This document shows, one piece after another, positions 7,459 through 50,835 of a DNA stretch of 64,000 nt. The notes below the pieces were generated by a model. That model ran no database searches, was not told where the DNA came from, and saw nothing but the letters and a program-made list of their open reading frames with translations. The stretch is from Longibacter salinarum (lineage in GTDB: Bacteria > Bacteroidota > Rhodothermia > Rhodothermales > Salinibacteraceae). The DNA lies in the NCBI RefSeq assembly GCF_002554795.1, contig NZ_PDEQ01000001.1, positions 62,001 through 126,000 of the forward strand. Reading direction: 5' to 3'. Both the position numbers and the translations under genes were made by a program. Within the stretch, counting starts at the first letter, position 1. The number at the start of each line of letters is the position of its first letter.

Positions 7459-9009
7459 TTACAGGCGAGCCAGCGCATTGACGATGCGGTCCTGAGCACG
7501 CCGAATCCGGTAGCCCTTCGTCGTGTGGTTCATGCAATAGATCGAGAAGACAAGGGGCGTCCCGTCGCTGCTCGATACGTATCCACTGAGCGCACTTACG
7601 TTCGACAGCGTACCTGTTTTTGCGCGGACATTACGTCCCGCTGAAGCGTTTCCTCGAAATCGATATTCAAGCGTTCCATCGCGTCCGCCGAGTGGAAGAC
7701 TCTCCACGAATGCGCGTCGCCGTGCACGATCCGGATGATTCCACATGTAGTGCAACATCGTGATCGTAGCCTCTGGGCTCACGAGGTTGTGCCGGGAGAG
7801 ACCGCTGCCGTCGGCGACGGCGATTCGGCTCGTGTCCACGCCCGCTTCTGCGGCAACTGATTTGATGACGAACGCCCCCTTCTCAGCCGATCCAGGCTCG
7901 AGCCCATTCGTGTCGGGGGCGGCATGCACGGCGAGTGTGCGAAGGACATGCTCCGCGTAGAGGTTGTCGCTGTCCTCATTTATGACCGCGACCAGTTCAC
8001 TCATTGGCGGGGACGCGTGCGACGCAACGGACACGACGGAGGAAGATGTGTAATCTGGCGGCAACGGCATGTCATCGACGTCTACCGGGGAGCCGGACAC
8101 GGCGATGCCTTCATCGATCAGGACTTCGCGAAGCACATGGGCGAAGTACAGCGTGGGATTGTCGACCGTGAGTTCCTCGCGTTCGAGTCGTCCCGCCGGG
8201 ACCGTCGTGCCAACGTGGATGGTGTTCGTGCCGTGCAGGCGCCGGTAGTTTTCATCCTTCTCGCTTCCGGGTTCGGTCGTCACGGTCTGGTTGACGATCG
8301 TGACGTAGTTCGTATTCATCGGCGCCCACTCCAGCGTGGCCGGCATGTTTTTTCTCTGACCGCGAACGCTCAGGTCAATCACGTTCCGGTGGTACGACAG
8401 TCCGCTAATCTGTGCGGCGTAGTAAAACGGTGTATCATCCCAGCTCCATCCTTTGCCGAGGGACTCATCGTCGAACACGTCGTCATCCCCGACGATGTCC
8501 CCGTTGATGCGCTGGATGCCGGCCGCACGTAGGGAGTCGGCCCAGGCTCGAAAAACGTGCGTGGGGTCTGGGTTTGCGTCTCCGATGCTCGGGTCGCCGG
8601 ACCCGCGAACGATCAGAGGGCCATGGAGAACGCCATCCTCAACGGGGCCGCCGCGATACACGGTTGTTGTGTATCGAAAGTCGGGACCAAGGCGATCCAG
8701 AGCGGTTGCCGCCGTGAAGAGTTTCATGTTCGACGCGGGTGTCGCGTTGGTCGCGCCATTGCGTGAGAATAGCACGCTCCCGCTGTTGGCCTCCGCGACG
8801 GTGATTCCCCAGTGCGATCCCGACAGCGAGTTGTCACCGAGGGCGGCGTCTACAGCTGACTGGATAGAAGCAGACGCTTTTCCCTCAACGAAAGCCGGCT
8901 GGGCGGTGGCCGGCAAAACGCTTGATGCAACGAATCCAAGGATGACGACGGTCAGGGCCCGGACCACGGATGGGGGCGATGCGAGAGAAAGAAAAATACG
9001 GCGCTCCAC
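7459..9009 (-). CDS. dacB: DacB/PBP4-type D-Ala-D-Ala carboxypeptidase/endopeptidase (peptidase S13)
   Basis: Periplasmic 516-residue class C penicillin-binding protein that trims or cleaves peptidoglycan cross-links. A signal peptide (about 1-37, ending ATAQ) precedes the catalytic motifs SNMK (Ser93, Lys96), SDN (347-349) and KTG (464-466). The large insertion between the first and second motifs is typical of the S13 family. Translation appears to start at GTG 9009; I see no better ATG that keeps the signal peptide. It lies 130 bp downstream of mreC on the same strand, which suits a cell-wall role. Confidence 0.93.
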   Translation of the reverse strand: MERRIFLSLASPPSVVRALTVVILGFVASSVLPATAQPAFVEGKASASIQSAVDAALGDNSLSGSHWGITVAEANSGSVLFSRNGATNATPASNMKLFTAATALDRLGPDFRYTTTVYRGGPVEDGVLHGPLIVRGSGDPSIGDANPDPTHVFRAWADSLRAAGIQRINGDIVGDDDVFDDESLGKGWSWDDTPFYYAAQISGLSYHRNVIDLSVRGQRKNMPATLEWAPMNTNYVTIVNQTVTTEPGSEKDENYRRLHGTNTIHVGTTVPAGRLEREELTVDNPTLYFAHVLREVLIDEGIAVSGSPVDVDDMPLPPDYTSSSVVSVASHASPPMSELVAVINEDSDNLYAEHVLRTLAVHAAPDTNGLEPGSAEKGAFVIKSVAAEAGVDTSRIAVADGSGLSRHNLVSPEATITMLHYMWNHPDRARRRAFVESLPLGGRDGTLEYRFRGNASAGRNVRAKTGTLSNVSALSGYVSSSDGTPLVFSIYCMNHTTKGYRIRRAQDRIVNALARL

Positions 9010-9138
9010 GGTTTGAAAGATCGAAAAGAAGGAGATGTTATGTGGACGCAGTTTGAGTCGGACTGCATCGAGTAGCGTTTCAAAATGTACATACAGCGCA
9101 CGGTGAGATGCCGTGCCGTGTGCTCAGATTACAGCAGA

Positions 9139-9960
9139 TCACGGAATCGACTCCGCTTCGAGGCTCTGTCGTTCTTTCGGCGGGAGAGAACGGATGACGA
9201 ATGCGTGATTGATGCGATATAGCTTGACCGCCGGTCGCAGGAAGATGCGAAATTCATTCCTACCTGGTCTGACGGCTACTGAATCGATAACCCCGATCTG
9301 CTCGCCAGGAGGGAAGATGTCACTATGTCCACTGGTTACGACCTGTTGCCCGGTCGATACGGGCTCGGTCTTCACGACGTGCTGGAGTAGAAGGCGGTCG
9401 AGTTGGTCGCCTTCCCACCGCACGATACCCTCTGCGCCGATGGGTATGATGGTCGCCGGCACCCTGAAGTCAGTATTTAGAAACGGCATGACCCGGGAGA
9501 AATGCTCGCTGACGAGGACTACTTTTCCAATCACCCCCGATTCGTGGATCACGGGCATTCCGGCCGCAACACTATCGGTGGATCCAACGTCCAGCGTGAT
9601 CCAGTTCCGTTGCCGCGTAATGTCCTTGGTCACGATCCGAGCCGGGATCATGTCCGCCTGCGACGTATCCCGCAGGCTCAGCATGCGACGCAACTCTTGA
9701 TTCTGCGTGCGCACGGCTCGCGACCGGGCGACTTCGCTCGAGAGCTCGATGTTGCGGCGGCGAAGCGCATCATTTTCCTCGACGGCTCGGACGTACCGAC
9801 CCACCCAGGCGAAGCTGCTCTCAATCTTTGCCGTCCATTCCATCGTCTCCGCACGTACGGCGCGTACAAGCGGGCGATTTTGCGTCGCCATGACGACGAC
9901 GGACGCCAGCAGCAGGGCTACCAGCAGGAGCCAGTCCCGGAGCTGTTCCCAGAGGTTCAT
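9139..9960 (-). CDS. mreC: MreC rod-shape-determining protein
   Basis: 273-residue inner-membrane protein of the elongasome. One N-terminal membrane segment (about 8-26) is followed by a coiled coil (about 55-95) and a two-part periplasmic beta domain containing GVIGKVVLVSEHFSRVMPFL and NTDFRVPA, characteristic of MreC. It links cytoplasmic MreB filaments to the periplasmic penicillin-binding proteins. It starts 73 bp after mreB. The next gene is dacB, not mreD as in most mre operons. Confidence 0.93.
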   Translation of the reverse strand: MNLWEQLRDWLLLVALLLASVVVMATQNRPLVRAVRAETMEWTAKIESSFAWVGRYVRAVEENDALRRRNIELSSEVARSRAVRTQNQELRRMLSLRDTSQADMIPARIVTKDITRQRNWITLDVGSTDSVAAGMPVIHESGVIGKVVLVSEHFSRVMPFLNTDFRVPATIIPIGAEGIVRWEGDQLDRLLLQHVVKTEPVSTGQQVVTSGHSDIFPPGEQIGVIDSVAVRPGRNEFRIFLRPAVKLYRINHAFVIRSLPPKERQSLEAESIP

Positions 9961-43654: not shown

Positions 43655-43858
43655 CAGACCACGTGAAGTGTCAAGCAGATCAGAGAACCGTCGGTAGAAA
43701 GACGAGTCGATCCCGTCGAGGATTCGATCATCCGTAGCGAAAGACGCGGATCCGACGGAGTTTCCCCAAAATCACGGGGCAACCTCTTGTTGATCGACAC
43801 CTTTTCGCGAGAGTGCCGTTCCTATCCCACGACCCTTTCACATGCGCTCCTGTACGGA

Positions 43859-44995
43859 ATGGCTGATTCGGTATTGATCGTCGGTGGTGGCGTGGTAGGC
43901 CTGTCGACCGGGTTTGAACTTCTTCGCTCGGGCGTGCCGGTCACGATTTTTGAAAAAGACCGGGCCGGACGTGGGACCTCGTGGCTGGCCGCGGGCATGC
44001 TCGCGCCAGATACGGAGATCGGATTCGAGGAGCGAGAGCTGTACAACCTGAACCGGGAGAGCCTTCGCCGTTGGCCGGACTTCGCTGCCGCGGTCGAGGC
44101 GTCGAGCGGTCAATCGGTGGACTATCGGGACGACGGCACCCTGATCGTCGCAGACGACCCCGACAGCACGAAGCGCATCCGTCGGCTGTACGAGTTTCAG
44201 CAGGAGCAGGGTTTGGACGTCGACTGGCTTACCGGTGACGAGGCACGCGATCGAGAGCCCTTTGTCGGTCCGCGCGTCTCAGCGGCCATCTGGGTGGAGT
44301 CGGATCACCAGGTTGATAACCGCCTCCTTCTTGAGGCACTGCGGGATGCGTTCCTAGCGGAGGGAGGCGACCTACGAGAGCATACGCCGGTGGATCGAAT
44401 CTGTCCGGATGCGGAGAGTCCGGCCGTCGTGACAGAGGAGGGCGAGACGGTAAGCGGGCGCGAGGTCGTTGTTGCAGCGGGCGTCTGGTCCCGGCAGCTG
44501 GACGGGCTCGAGCCGGGCGGTCCTCCACCCGTGCGCCCCGTGAAGGGGCAAATGGTCCAGCTTCAAATGAAACTCCCCTTCGCGTTAGAGCACGTGATCC
44601 GCGGGCCCGATGCGTACCTGGCTCCGAAGTCCAGCGGTCGGTTGGTCATTGGCGCGACGAGCGAGGAAATGGGCTTCGACACAGACGTGACGGCCGGTGG
44701 GTTATATGACCTGCTCGAAGGCGCCTGGGAGGTCGTGCCGGGCGTCTACGATCTGTCGGTCGACGAAACGTGGGCCGGGTTGCGACCTGCGAGCCGCGAT
44801 CATGCGCCGATTCTAGGCCGATCCGGAGCGCCCGGTGTAATCCACGCGACCGGGCATTACCGACACGGCATTCTGCTGGCTCCGGTGACGGCTCAGGAAG
44901 TCGCTCGACTGATCGAAACAGGAGAAACATCCCGCTGGATCGAGCCGTTTTCCCCCGCCCGATTTTCCGAATCGATCCCGCAAGCCTCAGCATGA
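43859..44995 (+). CDS. thiO: ThiO glycine oxidase
   Basis: 378-residue FAD enzyme that oxidises glycine to the iminoglycine needed to build the thiazole of thiamin in aerobes. The FAD loop is VGGGVVGLSTGFELL, with GTSWLAAGMLAP and GLRPASRDHAPILG as further family motifs. The ATG at 43859 is chosen; a longer frame adds 24 residues. It is the first gene of the thi cluster and overlaps thiS by the ATGA stop-start. With ThiO, the anaerobic ThiH route is not needed. Confidence 0.92.
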   Translation: MADSVLIVGGGVVGLSTGFELLRSGVPVTIFEKDRAGRGTSWLAAGMLAPDTEIGFEERELYNLNRESLRRWPDFAAAVEASSGQSVDYRDDGTLIVADDPDSTKRIRRLYEFQQEQGLDVDWLTGDEARDREPFVGPRVSAAIWVESDHQVDNRLLLEALRDAFLAEGGDLREHTPVDRICPDAESPAVVTEEGETVSGREVVVAAGVWSRQLDGLEPGGPPPVRPVKGQMVQLQMKLPFALEHVIRGPDAYLAPKSSGRLVIGATSEEMGFDTDVTAGGLYDLLEGAWEVVPGVYDLSVDETWAGLRPASRDHAPILGRSGAPGVIHATGHYRHGILLAPVTAQEVARLIETGETSRWIEPFSPARFSESIPQASA

Positions 44996-45231
44996 GCACC
45001 ACGGATTCCGACACCGAAACGGTAGAAATCACGGTCAACGGCGCCCCCCGATCCGTGCCGCAGCGATATCCCCTGACGGAGTTGCTCAACGACCTGAACG
45101 TTGACGTGGAGACGGCGACCGGTGTGGCTGTCGCAATCAACGAGAGCGTGATTCGCCGGCAGGACTGGGCGGACGTTACGCTCTCCGAAGAAGATACCGT
45201 CGAGGTCATTACCGCCCAGCAGGGAGGATGA
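44992..45231 (+). CDS. thiS: ThiS sulfur-carrier protein
   Basis: 79-residue ubiquitin-like protein ending in Gly-Gly (QQGG), which is thiocarboxylated to deliver sulfur for the thiazole ring. It starts with an ATG overlapping the thiO stop at 44992-44995, a sign of translational coupling. VTLSEEDTVEVITAQQGG is the family's C-terminal pattern. The ThiF adenylyltransferase that activates it is not encoded here. Confidence 0.92.
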   Translation: MSTTDSDTETVEITVNGAPRSVPQRYPLTELLNDLNVDVETATGVAVAINESVIRRQDWADVTLSEEDTVEVITAQQGG

Positions 45232-45326
45232 CTGCTCGCAAACAAACGCTCTGCCCGGCTGATGTTGCGATATTCGTTTAGCGTGTGCAGGGCCAACCTT
45301 TTTTGATTAGAGACCGGAACGACCCA

Positions 45327-46166
45327 ATGTCTGAGATTGCCGCCACGGATACGGACGCTCAGCCCGAGCGTGATGCTGCCGCCCAGCAGGAAGACCTCCT
45401 GCGCATTGGCGACGACGCGTATTCCTCGCGCCTGTTGATCGGATCGAGCTCGTATCCGAACCCGCAGGTGATGATGGACGCTATTGACGCGTCGGGCGCT
45501 GAGCTCGTCACCGTGGCGATCCGCCGGGTCAATGTTCAGAGTCCAGCCCCGGAGAGTCACCTCGATTTGATCCGGAAAGGTGGGTACCGTGTGCTTCCGA
45601 ACACGGCCGGTTGCTACACCGCAAAAGAAGCCGTTCTCGTCGCGCAACTGGCCCGCGAGGCCCTCGACACCGATCTCATCAAGCTTGAAGTGATCGGCGA
45701 CGACGAGACGCTGATGCCGGACGTGGAGCAGCTACTCAAGGCCGCCAAGCAATTGATCGACGACGGCTTCACGGTGCTCGCGTACTCGAACGACGACCCC
45801 ATCACCTGCCGCAAGCTGGCGGACATGGGGTGCGCCGCCGTGATGCCACTTGGCTCGCCCATCGGGAGTGGCATGGGAATCGTCAACCCGTACAACCTGC
45901 GCATCATCCGGGAGGTCGTGCCCGACACGCCGCTGATTGTCGACGCCGGCATCGGGACGGCGAGCGACGCGGCGATAGCGATGGAACTGGGCTACGATGG
46001 CATTCTACTCAATACAGCCATTGCTGAGGCGCAGCATCCCGTCGCGATGGCGCGGGCGATGCGTCTCGCGGTGGCGTCAGGGCGTCTTGCATACCAGGCC
46101 GGCCGCGTACCGGAGCGAATTTACGCCAAAGCGTCGTCTTCGATGGAAGGCCGCGTCGGATCGTAA
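45327..46166 (+). CDS. thiG: ThiG thiazole synthase
   Basis: 279-residue TIM-barrel enzyme that joins 1-deoxy-D-xylulose-5-phosphate, iminoglycine and sulfur from ThiS into the thiazole phosphate. Schiff-base Lys119 lies in [31 protein letters not shown] and [16 protein letters not shown] are signatures, and the C-terminal motif is [18 protein letters not shown]. The ATG at 45327 is chosen over an upstream in-frame start. It is 96 bp after thiS. Confidence 0.95.
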
Positions 46167-46220
46167 CTCGCGCCGTCAGCCCACGTGTCTTCCGTCGCCA
46201 TCAATCGTCCGGTTTTCAGA

Positions 46221-46856
46221 ATGGACAATCTGCCCCGTCTCATCCTTGTTGCAGACCGATTTACCGAGTCGGATCGGCAGGTTCGGGTTTTTGACGCCGT
46301 TCGGGCCGGGGTTCCGTGGATTCACCTCCGCGATCACGAGGCGGATGACGCGACTTTTCGGCGTGCTGCGGTTTCGCTGACCGAGCAGATTGAAGCGGAG
46401 GGAGGCGGGACGCGCATATCCGTAAATCAGCGCCTCGACGTTGCGGACGATCTAGGACTCGATTACCATGCAGGATCTCACGGGGCCGGCGTTCAGGAGG
46501 CCCGAGATCGTCTGGGAGCATCGGCCATCATCGGATATTCCGCACATGAGGATCAGGAGGTGACCGGTGCTCGGTCAGAGATCGTCGACTATTTGTTCTA
46601 CAGTCCGATCTTTCCGACGTCGAGCAAGCCCGATCACCCCGGGATGGGTCTCGCCGAGCTATCTCGCGTTTGCGCCGTCTCTACCAGGCCCGTATTTGCT
46701 CTCGGTGGCATCACGCCGGAGCGGGTAACGCCGTGTCTTCGTAAAGGGGCACACGGCGTTGCGGTGCTCAGTGGTCTGATGGAGGCGAAAGACGTGCGTG
46801 TCGCTGCGGAAGAGTATCTCCAGCGCTTGGCGTCTATCCGGCAATACGAAGAGTAG
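46221..46856 (+). CDS. thiE: ThiE/TenI family: thiamin-phosphate synthase or thiazole tautomerase
   Basis: 211-residue TIM-barrel protein from the ATG at 46221 (a GTG at 46185 would add 12 residues). It shows IHLRDHE, VNQRLDVADD, IGYSAHED, YSPIFPTSSKP and ALGGITPERV. Canonical ThiE has Q-x-R-x-K, N-x-R-x-D, G-P and T-K elements. Here the Lys is replaced by His and the Gln position by His, which leaves it between ThiE and TenI. The gene order thiO-thiS-thiG-[this gene]-thiD is close to the Bacillus tenI-thiO-thiS-thiG-thiF-thiD arrangement, which supports TenI as an alternative. Symbol thiE is provisional. Confidence 0.75.
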   Translation: MDNLPRLILVADRFTESDRQVRVFDAVRAGVPWIHLRDHEADDATFRRAAVSLTEQIEAEGGGTRISVNQRLDVADDLGLDYHAGSHGAGVQEARDRLGASAIIGYSAHEDQEVTGARSEIVDYLFYSPIFPTSSKPDHPGMGLAELSRVCAVSTRPVFALGGITPERVTPCLRKGAHGVAVLSGLMEAKDVRVAAEEYLQRLASIRQYEE

Positions 46857-46999
46857 TGAACGCCGGTCTCGCAGATGAGCAAGCACGTTTGATGCGTGAT
46901 CCGTCGAGATTGAGAAACCACCGATGTCCAGCCGGATAGGTGGATAACAAAGCGAGACGTTTACCGATCAATATTCCAAATTAATAAGGTCGTATCTCA

Positions 47000-47836
47000 A
47001 TGACGAAGCCGGTCGCACTCTCAATTGCAGGAAGTGACTCCGGTGGTGGCGCCGGCATCCAGGCAGACCTCAAGTCGATGGAGGCCAACGGCGTCTTCGC
47101 GACATCTGTTATCACCGCCGTGACCGCGCAGAATACCGAAGCGGTGACGATGGCCTATGATCTCCCAACGCGCATTATCAAAGCGCAGATCGACGCCGTA
47201 GCGAAAGACTTTGATGTGTCGGCCACTAAGACGGGCATGCTGTCCACGTCCGAGATCATTCGCACCGTAGCCGAGAAGGTGGAGGAGCACGACCTGTTTC
47301 CGTTCATCGTAGACCCGGTCATGATATCCAAGAGCGGGTTCAAGCTACTGCAGGACGAAGCGATCGATACGTTGCGCGAGGTCCTCCTTCCGCTAGCGAC
47401 GATCACGACGCCCAATATTCACGAGGTCGAGTACCTGACGGGCGAAGAGATTCTCTCGGTTGACGACGCGAAGGAGGCGGCGAAGACGATCTTCGAGATG
47501 GGGCCGAGCTCGGTCCTGGTCAAGGGCGGGCACATGAATGAGACCGCCGAAGCGATGGACATTCTGTATGACGGCACCGCGTTTCATACCTTCACCGCCG
47601 ACAGAATCCGTACGGATAACACCCACGGCACCGGTTGCACGTACGCCAGTGCGATCGCAGCGAATCTTGCGCAGGGATGGGACCTCGGCAATGCCATTGA
47701 GCGAGCAAAGCGCTATGTGACGGCCGCGATCCGCAACTCGCTGGACCTCGGCAGCGGCCACGGCCCGACGAATCACTTCTTCCATCTCGATCCCGAAGGA
47801 GCATCGGAGGAGAAAGGTGTCATCGTTGATGCCTGA
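47000..47836 (+). CDS. thiD: ThiD HMP/HMP-P kinase
   Basis: 278-residue ribokinase-fold enzyme that phosphorylates hydroxymethylpyrimidine twice for thiamin assembly. [18 protein letters not shown] is the HMP site, [10 protein letters not shown] the adjacent loop, and [20 protein letters not shown] the ATP/anion-hole region with the catalytic Asp-Thr-Gly-Cys type motif. The length is normal and the ATG at 47000 is a good start. It closes the thi cluster; no TPP riboswitch was recognised upstream of thiO or thiD. Confidence 0.95.
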
Positions 47837-48214: not shown

Positions 48215-48288
48215 CTGCCCGTAGCTCAGATGGACAGAGCGGCGCACTACGGATGCGCAGGTCGGGGGTTCGAATCCTCCCGGGCAGG
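48215..48288 (+). tRNA. tRNA-Arg (anticodon ACG)
   Basis: Folds by hand as a standard cloverleaf of 74 nt. The acceptor stem is CTGCCCG/CGGGCAG with G73. The D arm is GCTC/GAGC, the anticodon stem GCGCA/TGCGC with loop CTACGGA (anticodon ACG at 48249-48251, A34 usually read as inosine), and the T arm GGGGG-TTCGAAT-CCTCC. CCA is not encoded. It decodes CGU/CGC/CGA arginine codons. Confidence 0.95.
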
Positions 48289-48296
48289 CTACCAAG

Positions 48297-48342: not shown

Positions 48343-48777
48343 GCTTGTGCATGTCAGATGCGCCAAGGAGGGAAGTCTAGATGGAGCCGGCTGACACGGA
48401 GATGCGTCGGCATCGATCGGACGCTCTTCCGTTCTGAAGTGCGCCGTCTTGTGCGGGTAGCATCCATCATGTGTCCCGCCGCCCTCGTTTCTGCGCCGGT
48501 TATTGGCCACGGGCCCTCTCGTTTCCCTTACATCCAGACCACTGAGTTCTCGCACAAGCACTCTACGTTTTGCCCGGTCGAACATGCGAGAGTAAGATTA
48601 CGACCGGCTACCGCGCGCGCTCTTTCTTGATACGGTAGCACGCGCATCCCTGATACGGCGGGCCCTTTCCCGGGGCCTCGGTCTCCCGTGCTGTGGGCTA
48701 CAGAATCCCAACGGATTCTCAATTCTCGAGCCTGCTCATTTTCCGAGCGTCCTTTTTTCGGATCCAGTTCACCGACC
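48343..48777. other. Gene-poor region between tRNA-Arg and methyltransferase fusion
   Basis: About 435 bp with no convincing gene. The longer open frames here lack signal or domain character. Confidence 0.4.
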
Positions 48778-50835
48778 ATGACCTCCTCTGATCCGGCTGT
48801 TTCGGACCCGGACGAAGCCGCACCGGGTGGCCCAGTTCCGCGTCTGGGTCCACACGTCCCCTCTGATTGGTGGCGGACCTTATTCGACGAGACCTATCTT
48901 TTTACGGATGCGGACGTCCTCACGCCCGCGATCACGGCCCGAGAAGTGGATCATCTGCTCGACCACACCGGGCTCGGGACGGACGACGTGGTTCTAGATC
49001 TTTGCTGCGGCCACGGTCGTCATGCGCTGGAACTGGCCCGGCGCGGGTTTCGGAAGATCTCCGGGCTCGATCAGTCCGAGTACCTCCTGGAGGTTGCGAG
49101 GTCGTCCGCGCGCAACGAAGGCATCGACATTCCCTTTGCCCTCGGAGACGCTCGCGACCTCCCATTCGGTGCCGCCAGCTTTGATGCCGTCTTGCTTCTC
49201 GGAAACAGCTTCGGATACTTCGAGAAAGAAGAGGATGACCGCCGGGTGCTGAATGAGGTGTCCCGCATTCTTCGTCCCGGCGGCCGCGTGGTCCTCGACC
49301 TGACCGATGGTGATCACACGCGCGCTTCGTTTCACCCTCGTTCGTGGGAGTGGGTCGGCGATCATCACCTGGTTTGTCGCGAGCGAGAGTTGGTGGACGG
49401 GCGCCGACTCGTCGTCCGAGAGATCGTGGTCGACATCCGTCGGGGCATTGAAGAGGACCGCTTCTACGCCGAACGCCTCTACGGGCGCCGTCAAATCTTG
49501 GAGGTCCTCGATGCGTCAGGCTTTCGCGGCGCAACGATCATCCCGATGAAGGGCGAGTCGTCCCGTGGCGACGATCTGGGCCTCATGCAACACCGCTTTC
49601 TCGTTACCGCGTGCTCGGCGTCCTCGCCGCAGACGCGGCTCGCGACCGGAAACGGTCAGATGTCGCCCAGCAAACCCTCGTCAGACCGGGATGGCTCCCG
49701 CAAGGCATCGAAGGAGGTGCAGGCGATGCTTTCTAAGTCTCCCTCTTGGTTCGTCCGGTCCGGTCCGCCCCCGGGCAGAGGTGGGTCACCGCGTCGCTTT
49801 GTGGCCGTCCTGCTCGGGGATCCGCGTCTGCCGGACGAAACAAAACTCGGCGGCATCTTCGACGACGACGATTTCGAGGTGCTGGAGCGCCTGCGCGCAG
49901 CACTGAGCGAACTGGATCTGTACGAATTTATGTATCTGGACGAGCATGATCGCCTTCTCGAGAATCTCCGGATCTTCGGCCCGAGTGTAGACCTTGTTTT
50001 CAACCTGTGCGACGAGGGCCTCCGCAACGTTCCGAGGCAAGAGTTGCATGTACCGGCGGTTTTGGAGTTGCTCAACCTCTCATACACGGGAGCCGGGCCC
50101 CAGTGTCTAGCACACTGCTACGACAAGTCGATTGTCCGAGGCGTCGCCTCCGAGATGGGCATCCGGGTAGCTCGAGGCTTCTACCTTTCTTCGGAGGCCG
50201 TCCTGCAGACCGTTCTACGCGCTGCGGATACAGATCTATCATACCCGGTCATCGTGAAGCCGAACGCGGCGGACAACAGTATGGGCATGACGAATCGATG
50301 CATAGCCCGAAATCGCGACGAGCTTCGCGCCGCCGTTGCGTCGGTTTGGGACCAGGTAGGAAACACGCGACCGCTACTGATCGAGGAGTTTCTCACCGGC
50401 GCTGATCTCACCTACGGGGTCATCGGAAACCCGGCGAGTGGGTTCTTGTCGCTCCCCATCAGCCAAGACGATTACAGCAGTCTCCCTGAAGGATCACCCC
50501 CCTTCAGCGGGTATGAAGCGAAATGGGTACCTGAATCTCCCTATTGGACGGACGTGACCGCTGTGCCCGCTCAGCTTCCCGAGGCGGTCGCGGGCCGGAT
50601 TCGGCGGGACAGCCATCGCCTCTTCGCCCGGCTCGAGTGCCGCGACTACGCGCGATTCGACTGGCGGCTCGACGCACGGGGCATCCCTCACCTTCTGGAG
50701 GTTAATCCGAATCCGGGCTGGTCGTGGGATAGTCACCTCGTTGAAGCAGCAGCCTTTGCGGGGATGTCGTATGCGAGCGTTTTAGCGTCCATCCTCGAAG
50801 CAGCCTATCAGCGGTTGTCTGTCCGAACGGAGTAG
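48778..50835 (+). CDS. Class I SAM methyltransferase fused to D-Ala-D-Ala-ligase-like ATP-grasp
   Basis: 685-residue protein from the ATG at 48778. The N-terminal half (about 30-285) is a Rossmann methyltransferase: motif I is VVLDLCCGHGRHALELA, with SFDAVLLLGNSFGYFE and LRPGGRVVLDL following. A low-complexity linker leads to an ATP-grasp half (about 335-680) of the D-Ala-D-Ala ligase type, with LLNLSYTGAGPQCLAHCYDK, VIVKPNAADNSMGM and HLLEVNPNPGWSWDSHL. Such a protein would methylate and then ligate, or the reverse, on one molecule. No wall-synthesis or RiPP gene is adjacent, so the substrate is unknown. The frame runs unbroken through both halves. Confidence 0.85.
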   Translation: MTSSDPAVSDPDEAAPGGPVPRLGPHVPSDWWRTLFDETYLFTDADVLTPAITAREVDHLLDHTGLGTDDVVLDLCCGHGRHALELARRGFRKISGLDQSEYLLEVARSSARNEGIDIPFALGDARDLPFGAASFDAVLLLGNSFGYFEKEEDDRRVLNEVSRILRPGGRVVLDLTDGDHTRASFHPRSWEWVGDHHLVCRERELVDGRRLVVREIVVDIRRGIEEDRFYAERLYGRRQILEVLDASGFRGATIIPMKGESSRGDDLGLMQHRFLVTACSASSPQTRLATGNGQMSPSKPSSDRDGSRKASKEVQAMLSKSPSWFVRSGPPPGRGGSPRRFVAVLLGDPRLPDETKLGGIFDDDDFEVLERLRAALSELDLYEFMYLDEHDRLLENLRIFGPSVDLVFNLCDEGLRNVPRQELHVPAVLELLNLSYTGAGPQCLAHCYDKSIVRGVASEMGIRVARGFYLSSEAVLQTVLRAADTDLSYPVIVKPNAADNSMGMTNRCIARNRDELRAAVASVWDQVGNTRPLLIEEFLTGADLTYGVIGNPASGFLSLPISQDDYSSLPEGSPPFSGYEAKWVPESPYWTDVTAVPAQLPEAVAGRIRRDSHRLFARLECRDYARFDWRLDARGIPHLLEVNPNPGWSWDSHLVEAAAFAGMSYASVLASILEAAYQRLSVRTE

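Follow-up and report, generated by a model that had tools for sequence, protein, structure and literature searches.

An NmbA-like methyltransferase domain fused to a divergent Ddl-fold ATP-grasp ligase domain in Longibacter salinarum and other bacteria

A single gene in the window, the 64,000-nucleotide stretch of Longibacter salinarum DNA analyzed here, was found to encode, within one chain, two predicted catalytic folds that retain the residues for their cofactors. One is a class I SAM methyltransferase and the other a D-Ala-D-Ala ligase (Ddl)-like ATP-grasp ligase, and this combination was conserved as a unit in other genomes. We consider the chances about even that the product is a bifunctional small-molecule enzyme, which would form an amide bond and N-methylate an amino-acid-type amine to give a small methylated peptide.

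The translated frame started with ATG and was free of stops over its whole length on the forward strand (Table 1). The same reading frame remained open for 30 codons upstream, as far as a GTG at 48688, and the homologues of the fused protein start near the ATG at 48778. The GC contents at the three codon positions were 0.68, 0.47 and 0.70, a pattern similar to that of four neighbouring genes (0.75-0.77 at the third position) and different from that of the antisense ORF at 48932-49534. Both domains exceeded their Pfam cut-offs, with Methyltransf_25 (PF13649) at residues 72-169 scoring 80.5 bits against 27 and Dala_Dala_lig_C (PF07478) at residues 462-674 scoring 81.5 bits against 24, in agreement with an earlier note on this DNA that had read one uninterrupted frame as a methyltransferase followed by a full ATP-grasp ligase. 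The note had also raised the possibility of two genes joined by a sequencing error. Such a local error was ruled out, and so was chance, by the presence of full-length homologues with this architecture in many other genomes.

Table 1. Positions of the fused gene, its parts and the related loci. Positions without a locus label refer to the window.
Feature	Position	Strand	Remarks
Fused gene	48778..50835	+	685 codons; frame, Pfam, homologue starts
Class I SAM methyltransferase domain, NmbA-like	48865..49620	+	residues about 30-281; Pfam, fold, profile
Strand-rich cap within methyltransferase domain			residues about 188-233; fold comparison
SAM-binding motif I, LDLCCGHGRH	48994..49023	+	residues 73-82; presumed motif I of the class I methyltransferases
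Disordered linker	49624..49785	+	residues 283-336; exceeds that of 23 other fused proteins by about 45 residues
Ddl-fold ATP-grasp ligase domain	49801..50817	+	residues 342-680 (about 338-680 for the full domain); Pfam, VIA-align Z 25-29
NLCDEG, replacing Ddl HG..E(D/N)G..QG	50002..50019	+	residues 409-414; 15/15 fused/split rows
Omega-loop motif YEAKW	50512..50526	+	residues 579-583; Lys and Trp in 15/15 fused/split rows
Arg626, Asp628, Glu641, Asn643	50653..50706	+	align with R255, D257, E270, N272 of E. coli DdlB
Lone ligase and S15/CocE loci	L052 8661-11824; L135 1-2585; L136 5761-8867; L137 5472-8559; L138 3130-8664		
RlmI-like gene	L038 7845-9014; L157 1057-2235; L086 10214-11395; L044 6908-8092		
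Operon of DUF885 gene, middle gene and methyltransferase	L039 2669-6771; L042 3033-6771; L045 2830-6768		
KamA-type cluster loci	L081 5780-9414; L082 6593-10478; L084 5595-9473; L085 4870-8700; L086 11508-18610		
Transporters/channels	L050 4370; L051 6919; L174 8469; L160 6345; L177 8342; L182 4668 and 7987; L136 1237-3631		

The AlphaFold model of the fused protein displayed two folded domains with a mean pLDDT of 78.3 and a pTM of 0.66, a modest value from which the relative placement of the two domains is not to be read. The segment between the domains had a pLDDT below 50, and the methyltransferase domain modelled alone reached a mean pLDDT of 89.7. The spacing between two fixed motifs across the linker was 76 residues in the window protein, compared with 30-32 residues in 23 other fused proteins, a set that left out G1153 and the 14 fusions from the phylum sample of a Spirochaetes MAG.

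The ligase half shared with Ddl (TIGR01205) the whole fold, the ATP/Mg residues and the Omega-loop lysine, but differed from it in the replaced donor and acceptor motifs, an Omega-loop Trp, the attached methyltransferase and a score below the curated cut-off. The solved folds matching this half by VIA-align were Ddl or Van ligases in all 50 cases listed, over about 275-311 residues, while its score against TIGR01205 was 101.1 bits compared with a cut-off of 245.65. The motifs were compared in an alignment of 43 ligases including 15 fused or split rows (the two-frame pair of G732 counting as one) and seven canonical Ddl rows. All 15 fused or split rows retained the Omega-loop Lys as well as the four metal/phosphate-site residues (Arg, Asp, Glu and Asn), which align with those of E. 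coli DdlB given in Table 1. The Omega-loop Tyr of all seven canonical enzymes was Trp in all 15, GGxxxE(H/R), likewise present in 7/7 canonical rows, was GD(P/S) in 15/15, and HG..E(D/N)G gave way to NLCDEG in every one. The combination of GGxxxE(H/R) and HG..E(D/N)G, presumably the Ddl donor-site signature, was found in the canonical rows and in none of the 15. On the acceptor side, the fused ligases had PGW with D(G/S)(H/K). In the five ligases of the same clade that lack the methyltransferase (lone ligases), the E of CDEG was T (5/5) and the Omega-loop Trp was lost as well. The residue check proposed in the earlier note thus gave a divided answer, with the metal ligands and the Lys of the Omega loop retained, but not its Tyr. 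Such changes are those to be expected of an active ATP-grasp ligase for other substrates. A separate canonical Ddl above the cut-off was detected in nine of nine genomes, eight with the fusion and one (G025) with a lone ligase. The view that Ddl enzymes are normally single-domain needs softening, given that G450 has its canonical Ddl within an open frame of 805 residues and that MurC-Ddl fusions occur in Chlamydiae.

When a profile of 16 methyltransferase-half sequences was searched against the PDB sequences, 9ri2 was the best match (1.3e-38, residues 29-263), with the runner-up at 7.7e-20. The entry corresponds to NmbA, the bacillithiol methyltransferase of Chlorobaculum tepidum, which has been shown to methylate the cysteine nitrogen of bacillithiol (PMC12719100; see also PMC6282198). 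NmbA has the same core and strand-rich cap, although it is a single-domain protein and not half of a two-domain fusion, and the identity between the two was 28-31 per cent. In a single-sequence search against 9ri2, the fused half gave 1.2e-27 and another gene of the window genome gave 1e-38 over its full length, so the closer NmbA homologue of this genome is, by sequence similarity, that separate gene and not the fused half. Other near folds included many amine N-methyltransferases (glycine sarcosine N-methyltransferase, TylM1, DesVI and CypM), and C-methyltransferases were also among them. BshC was present in five of 12 fusion genomes, these being all five genomes examined of the window's phylum, the window genome among them, and was absent from the other seven, which indicates that bacillithiol is not the general substrate. 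Together with the nearer NmbA homologue, this distribution suggested that NmbA is a guide to the chemistry, namely methylation of an amine on a small molecule derived from an amino acid, but not to the substrate. Even N-methylation is a guess, because class I methyltransferases change their acceptor atom easily and the likeness to NmbA is distant.

Full-length fusions were detected in 38 distinct genomes, and the samples that yielded them covered at least five groups at phylum level; some genomes fall in more than one sample, and the count includes G095 and G099. The sample from the window's phylum, Bacteroidota, contained the fusion in four of 394 genomes and that from its class in four of 244, the latter along with a two-frame pair and a single lone ligase. 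Six fusions in 274 genomes plus four lone ligases came from the class of a gammaproteobacterial MAG, six in 116 from the class of a Chlamydiae MAG, six in 247 from the phylum of a 'Deltaproteobacteria' MAG and 14 in 149 from the phylum of the Spirochaetes MAG. The fusion is therefore not an oddity of one genome but defines a sporadic, wide-ranging family found in 1 to 9 per cent of the sampled genomes. The spread was patchy, since only G095 and G099 carried the fusion among the 100 nearest relatives of the window genome. G450 had two tandem copies. In G732 (L139), the methyltransferase (7745-8674) and the ligase (8644-9672) occupied overlapping, different frames across the linker. This pair may be a true split or equally a frameshift or sequence error, and because of the overlap in different frames it was not counted in support of natural fission. 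A mobile-element or viral origin was rejected, as none of 74 pattern matches in viral contigs was confirmed as a relative, and the matches in five phage and eight plasmid records were partial, confined to the ligase half, with none covering 80 per cent of the query. A role as a defence system was dismissed as well; the lone PADLOC match (mad2) covered the methyltransferase part only and was taken as generic methyltransferase similarity.

Ligase trees were constructed with 43 and 54 sequences, leaving out the 14 fusions of the Spirochaetes-MAG phylum sample; the program gave a long-branch warning for the canonical Ddl rows. In both trees the fused, two-frame and lone ligases formed one clade with a support of 100/100, within which the window protein occupied a branch of its own. 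The lone ligases were nested within this clade, suggesting that they had lost the methyltransferase. The methyltransferase tree left an open fork between the fused rows, the operon-type rows described below and a lone methyltransferase of G1033, and the groupings of the two halves were broadly alike. A single fusion event thus appears likely when judged from the ligase side. The sister group in both trees was 'ligase B' of KamA-type clusters (96/90 and 96/88), with the fused ligases lying outside that group. In these clusters, two Ddl-like ligases are located near a KamA/LAM_C-type radical SAM gene, with a GNAT gene in four of six loci. Ligase B carries NLCE-type and YxAKW-type motifs like the fused ligases, but it has no methyltransferase domain and is accompanied by a lysine-2,3-aminomutase-type gene. 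Only four of nine genomes of the fusion subfamily had a KamA-type gene above the cut-off anywhere in the genome, the other five giving no match, and the neighbour comparison found no frame beside the examined fusions that clustered with known KamA-type frames. The window genome itself contains one KamA-cluster-type ligase close to a KamA-type gene, at about 381-383 kb of C2 in G000.

The fused gene stands alone in the window genome. Upstream lie genes at 43787-47836, which we take to be the thiamine genes thiO, thiS, thiG, thiE and thiD, and a tRNA-Arg gene (48215-48289); downstream, a gap of about 0.7 kb and a small ORF are followed by a gene on the other strand, presumably for a TonB-type receptor. 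When neighbouring frames of at least 90 codons were compared all against all, no gene common to most fusions emerged, with the reservation that genes were called mechanically, several contigs stop nearby and high-GC loci are noisy. Most fusions stood alone without a conserved biosynthetic partner. The absence of a companion gene, as claimed in the earlier note, thus held for this window and not for all relatives, some of which do have companions. An M32 carboxypeptidase gene was located downstream of the fusion in three of 38 genomes (G468 and the closely related G1078 and G1129), the two frames overlapping in G468 and G1078. S15/CocE-type hydrolase genes were near all five lone ligases, the assignment being made by Pfam/NCBIfam for G025, G582 and G613, by the C-terminal domain only for G622 and by similarity alone for G672. 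These recurring peptidases fit a peptide-like product without proving it.

Several further arrangements were observed around the family members. A gene for a PUA plus methyltransferase protein, which we assume to be RlmI-like, occurred 3' of the ligase at the fused loci of G450 and G894 and the KamA-type loci of G455 and G456 (in G456 assigned by similarity alone). Five operon-type relatives of the methyltransferase were situated behind a common gene, with a DUF885 gene ahead in three loci. The middle gene, suspected to be an ATP-grasp, had no Pfam match in the two of five examples examined, and a profile search returned only a putative glutathionylspermidine synthase (E 0.38). One fused-type methyltransferase without a ligase was found directly after two small SET-domain genes (L164 6939-8642), and a circularly permuted ATP-grasp type 2 gene followed by another gene was present near one fusion (L131 10921-13310). 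Genes for a Na/H-TrkA antiporter, SulP, CorA, a Na/Ca exchanger and CitMHS were detected beside several fusions, and MscS and CorA near one lone ligase.

In a bifunctional small-molecule enzyme of the kind proposed, the ligase half would activate one amino-acid-like substrate with ATP, its carboxylate becoming an acyl phosphate, and couple this to the amine of a second substrate. The methyltransferase half would methylate an amine of a substrate or of the product, much as NmbA methylates the cysteine amine in bacillithiol. Both halves would act on the same small molecule, and a small dipeptide or peptide-like amide carrying an N-methyl group would result. The tailoring role suggested in the earlier note was borne out as far as the fusion is real and its function lies outside wall synthesis; its small-molecule or peptide part is plausible from the sequence relationships, with NmbA acting on a small thiol. 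Animals provide an analogy in the carnosine route, where the dipeptide made by an ATP-grasp ligase is then N-methylated to give anserine, a methylated dipeptide. Carnosine synthase and carnosine N-methyltransferase are separate proteins and not a single fused chain, and the likeness is one of analogy, not of a homology comparison. More tentatively, and as a possibility rather than an expectation, the fusion might mark an undescribed N-methylated dipeptide or peptide-like thiol, made by one enzyme and scattered over at least five phyla, with the S15-linked relatives lacking the methyltransferase making a related unmethylated compound.

Other roles were weighed against this bifunctional small-molecule enzyme. 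A D-Ala-D-Ala ligase that is a paralogue or moonlights, with the methyltransferase as an accessory, would explain the Ddl fold and the catalytic residues, but the score far below the TIGR01205 cut-off (101 against 245.65 bits), the replacement of both donor- and acceptor-side motifs, the canonical Ddl in 9/9 genomes and the separate clade of the fused ligases made it extremely improbable. The score, the motifs and the separate Ddl likewise excluded the cell-wall ligase itself, from which the earlier note had rightly moved away. It is very doubtful that the fusion belongs to the bacillithiol pathway, with the methyltransferase making N-methyl-bacillithiol and the ligase adding or replacing cysteine. 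Such a role agrees with NmbA as the closest solved methyltransferase and with BshC in 5/5 genomes examined of the window's phylum, whereas cysteine addition is already carried out by BshC in the known pathway. As a general role it was disfavoured by the seven fusion genomes lacking BshC and by the separate, closer NmbA homologue of the window genome.

A modifier of proteins or ribosomal peptides, in which the ligase would lengthen a polypeptide at one end, to be capped by the methyltransferase, finds precedents in the RimK-type ATP-grasp enzymes, which act on proteins, and in CypM, a peptide N-terminal methyltransferase among the near folds. We judged it unlikely, as the ligase fold is of the Ddl type, whose solved members have a small-substrate site, and no precursor peptide or shared target gene recurred beside the fusions among frames of at least 90 codons. 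The production of a compatible solute or stress metabolite with a role in ion or osmotic balance, which seems rather unlikely, would account for the ion or solute transporters adjoining several fusions and for MscS and CorA near a lone ligase. The sister ligases, accompanied by an aminomutase-type gene and GNAT, also recall acetyl-beta-lysine synthesis. No single transporter family was conserved, however, and the adjacency may be due to chance.

The methyltransferase and ligase folds are both already known. The sporadic multi-phylum fusion family seems to be undescribed in the reachable literature, and the same holds for its relationship to the KamA-linked ligases and for the gap separating it from Ddl and NmbA. 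Text searches for an ATP-grasp/methyltransferase fusion listed no recognisable description of it, but it may have been mentioned earlier, for instance in the 2009 amidoligase survey by Iyer and colleagues. Passages of PMC11237513 deal with other fusions. As the fused gene is usually alone, there is no pathway to rebuild, and if both halves act on one molecule, a single purified protein and one comparison of metabolomes could be enough to bring a widespread new metabolite to light. Natural variants are at hand for comparison, in which the two domains are fused, the methyltransferase has been lost or the ligase is linked to an aminomutase. Such a result would also reveal the way in which a ligase of the cell-wall type acquired a different substrate.
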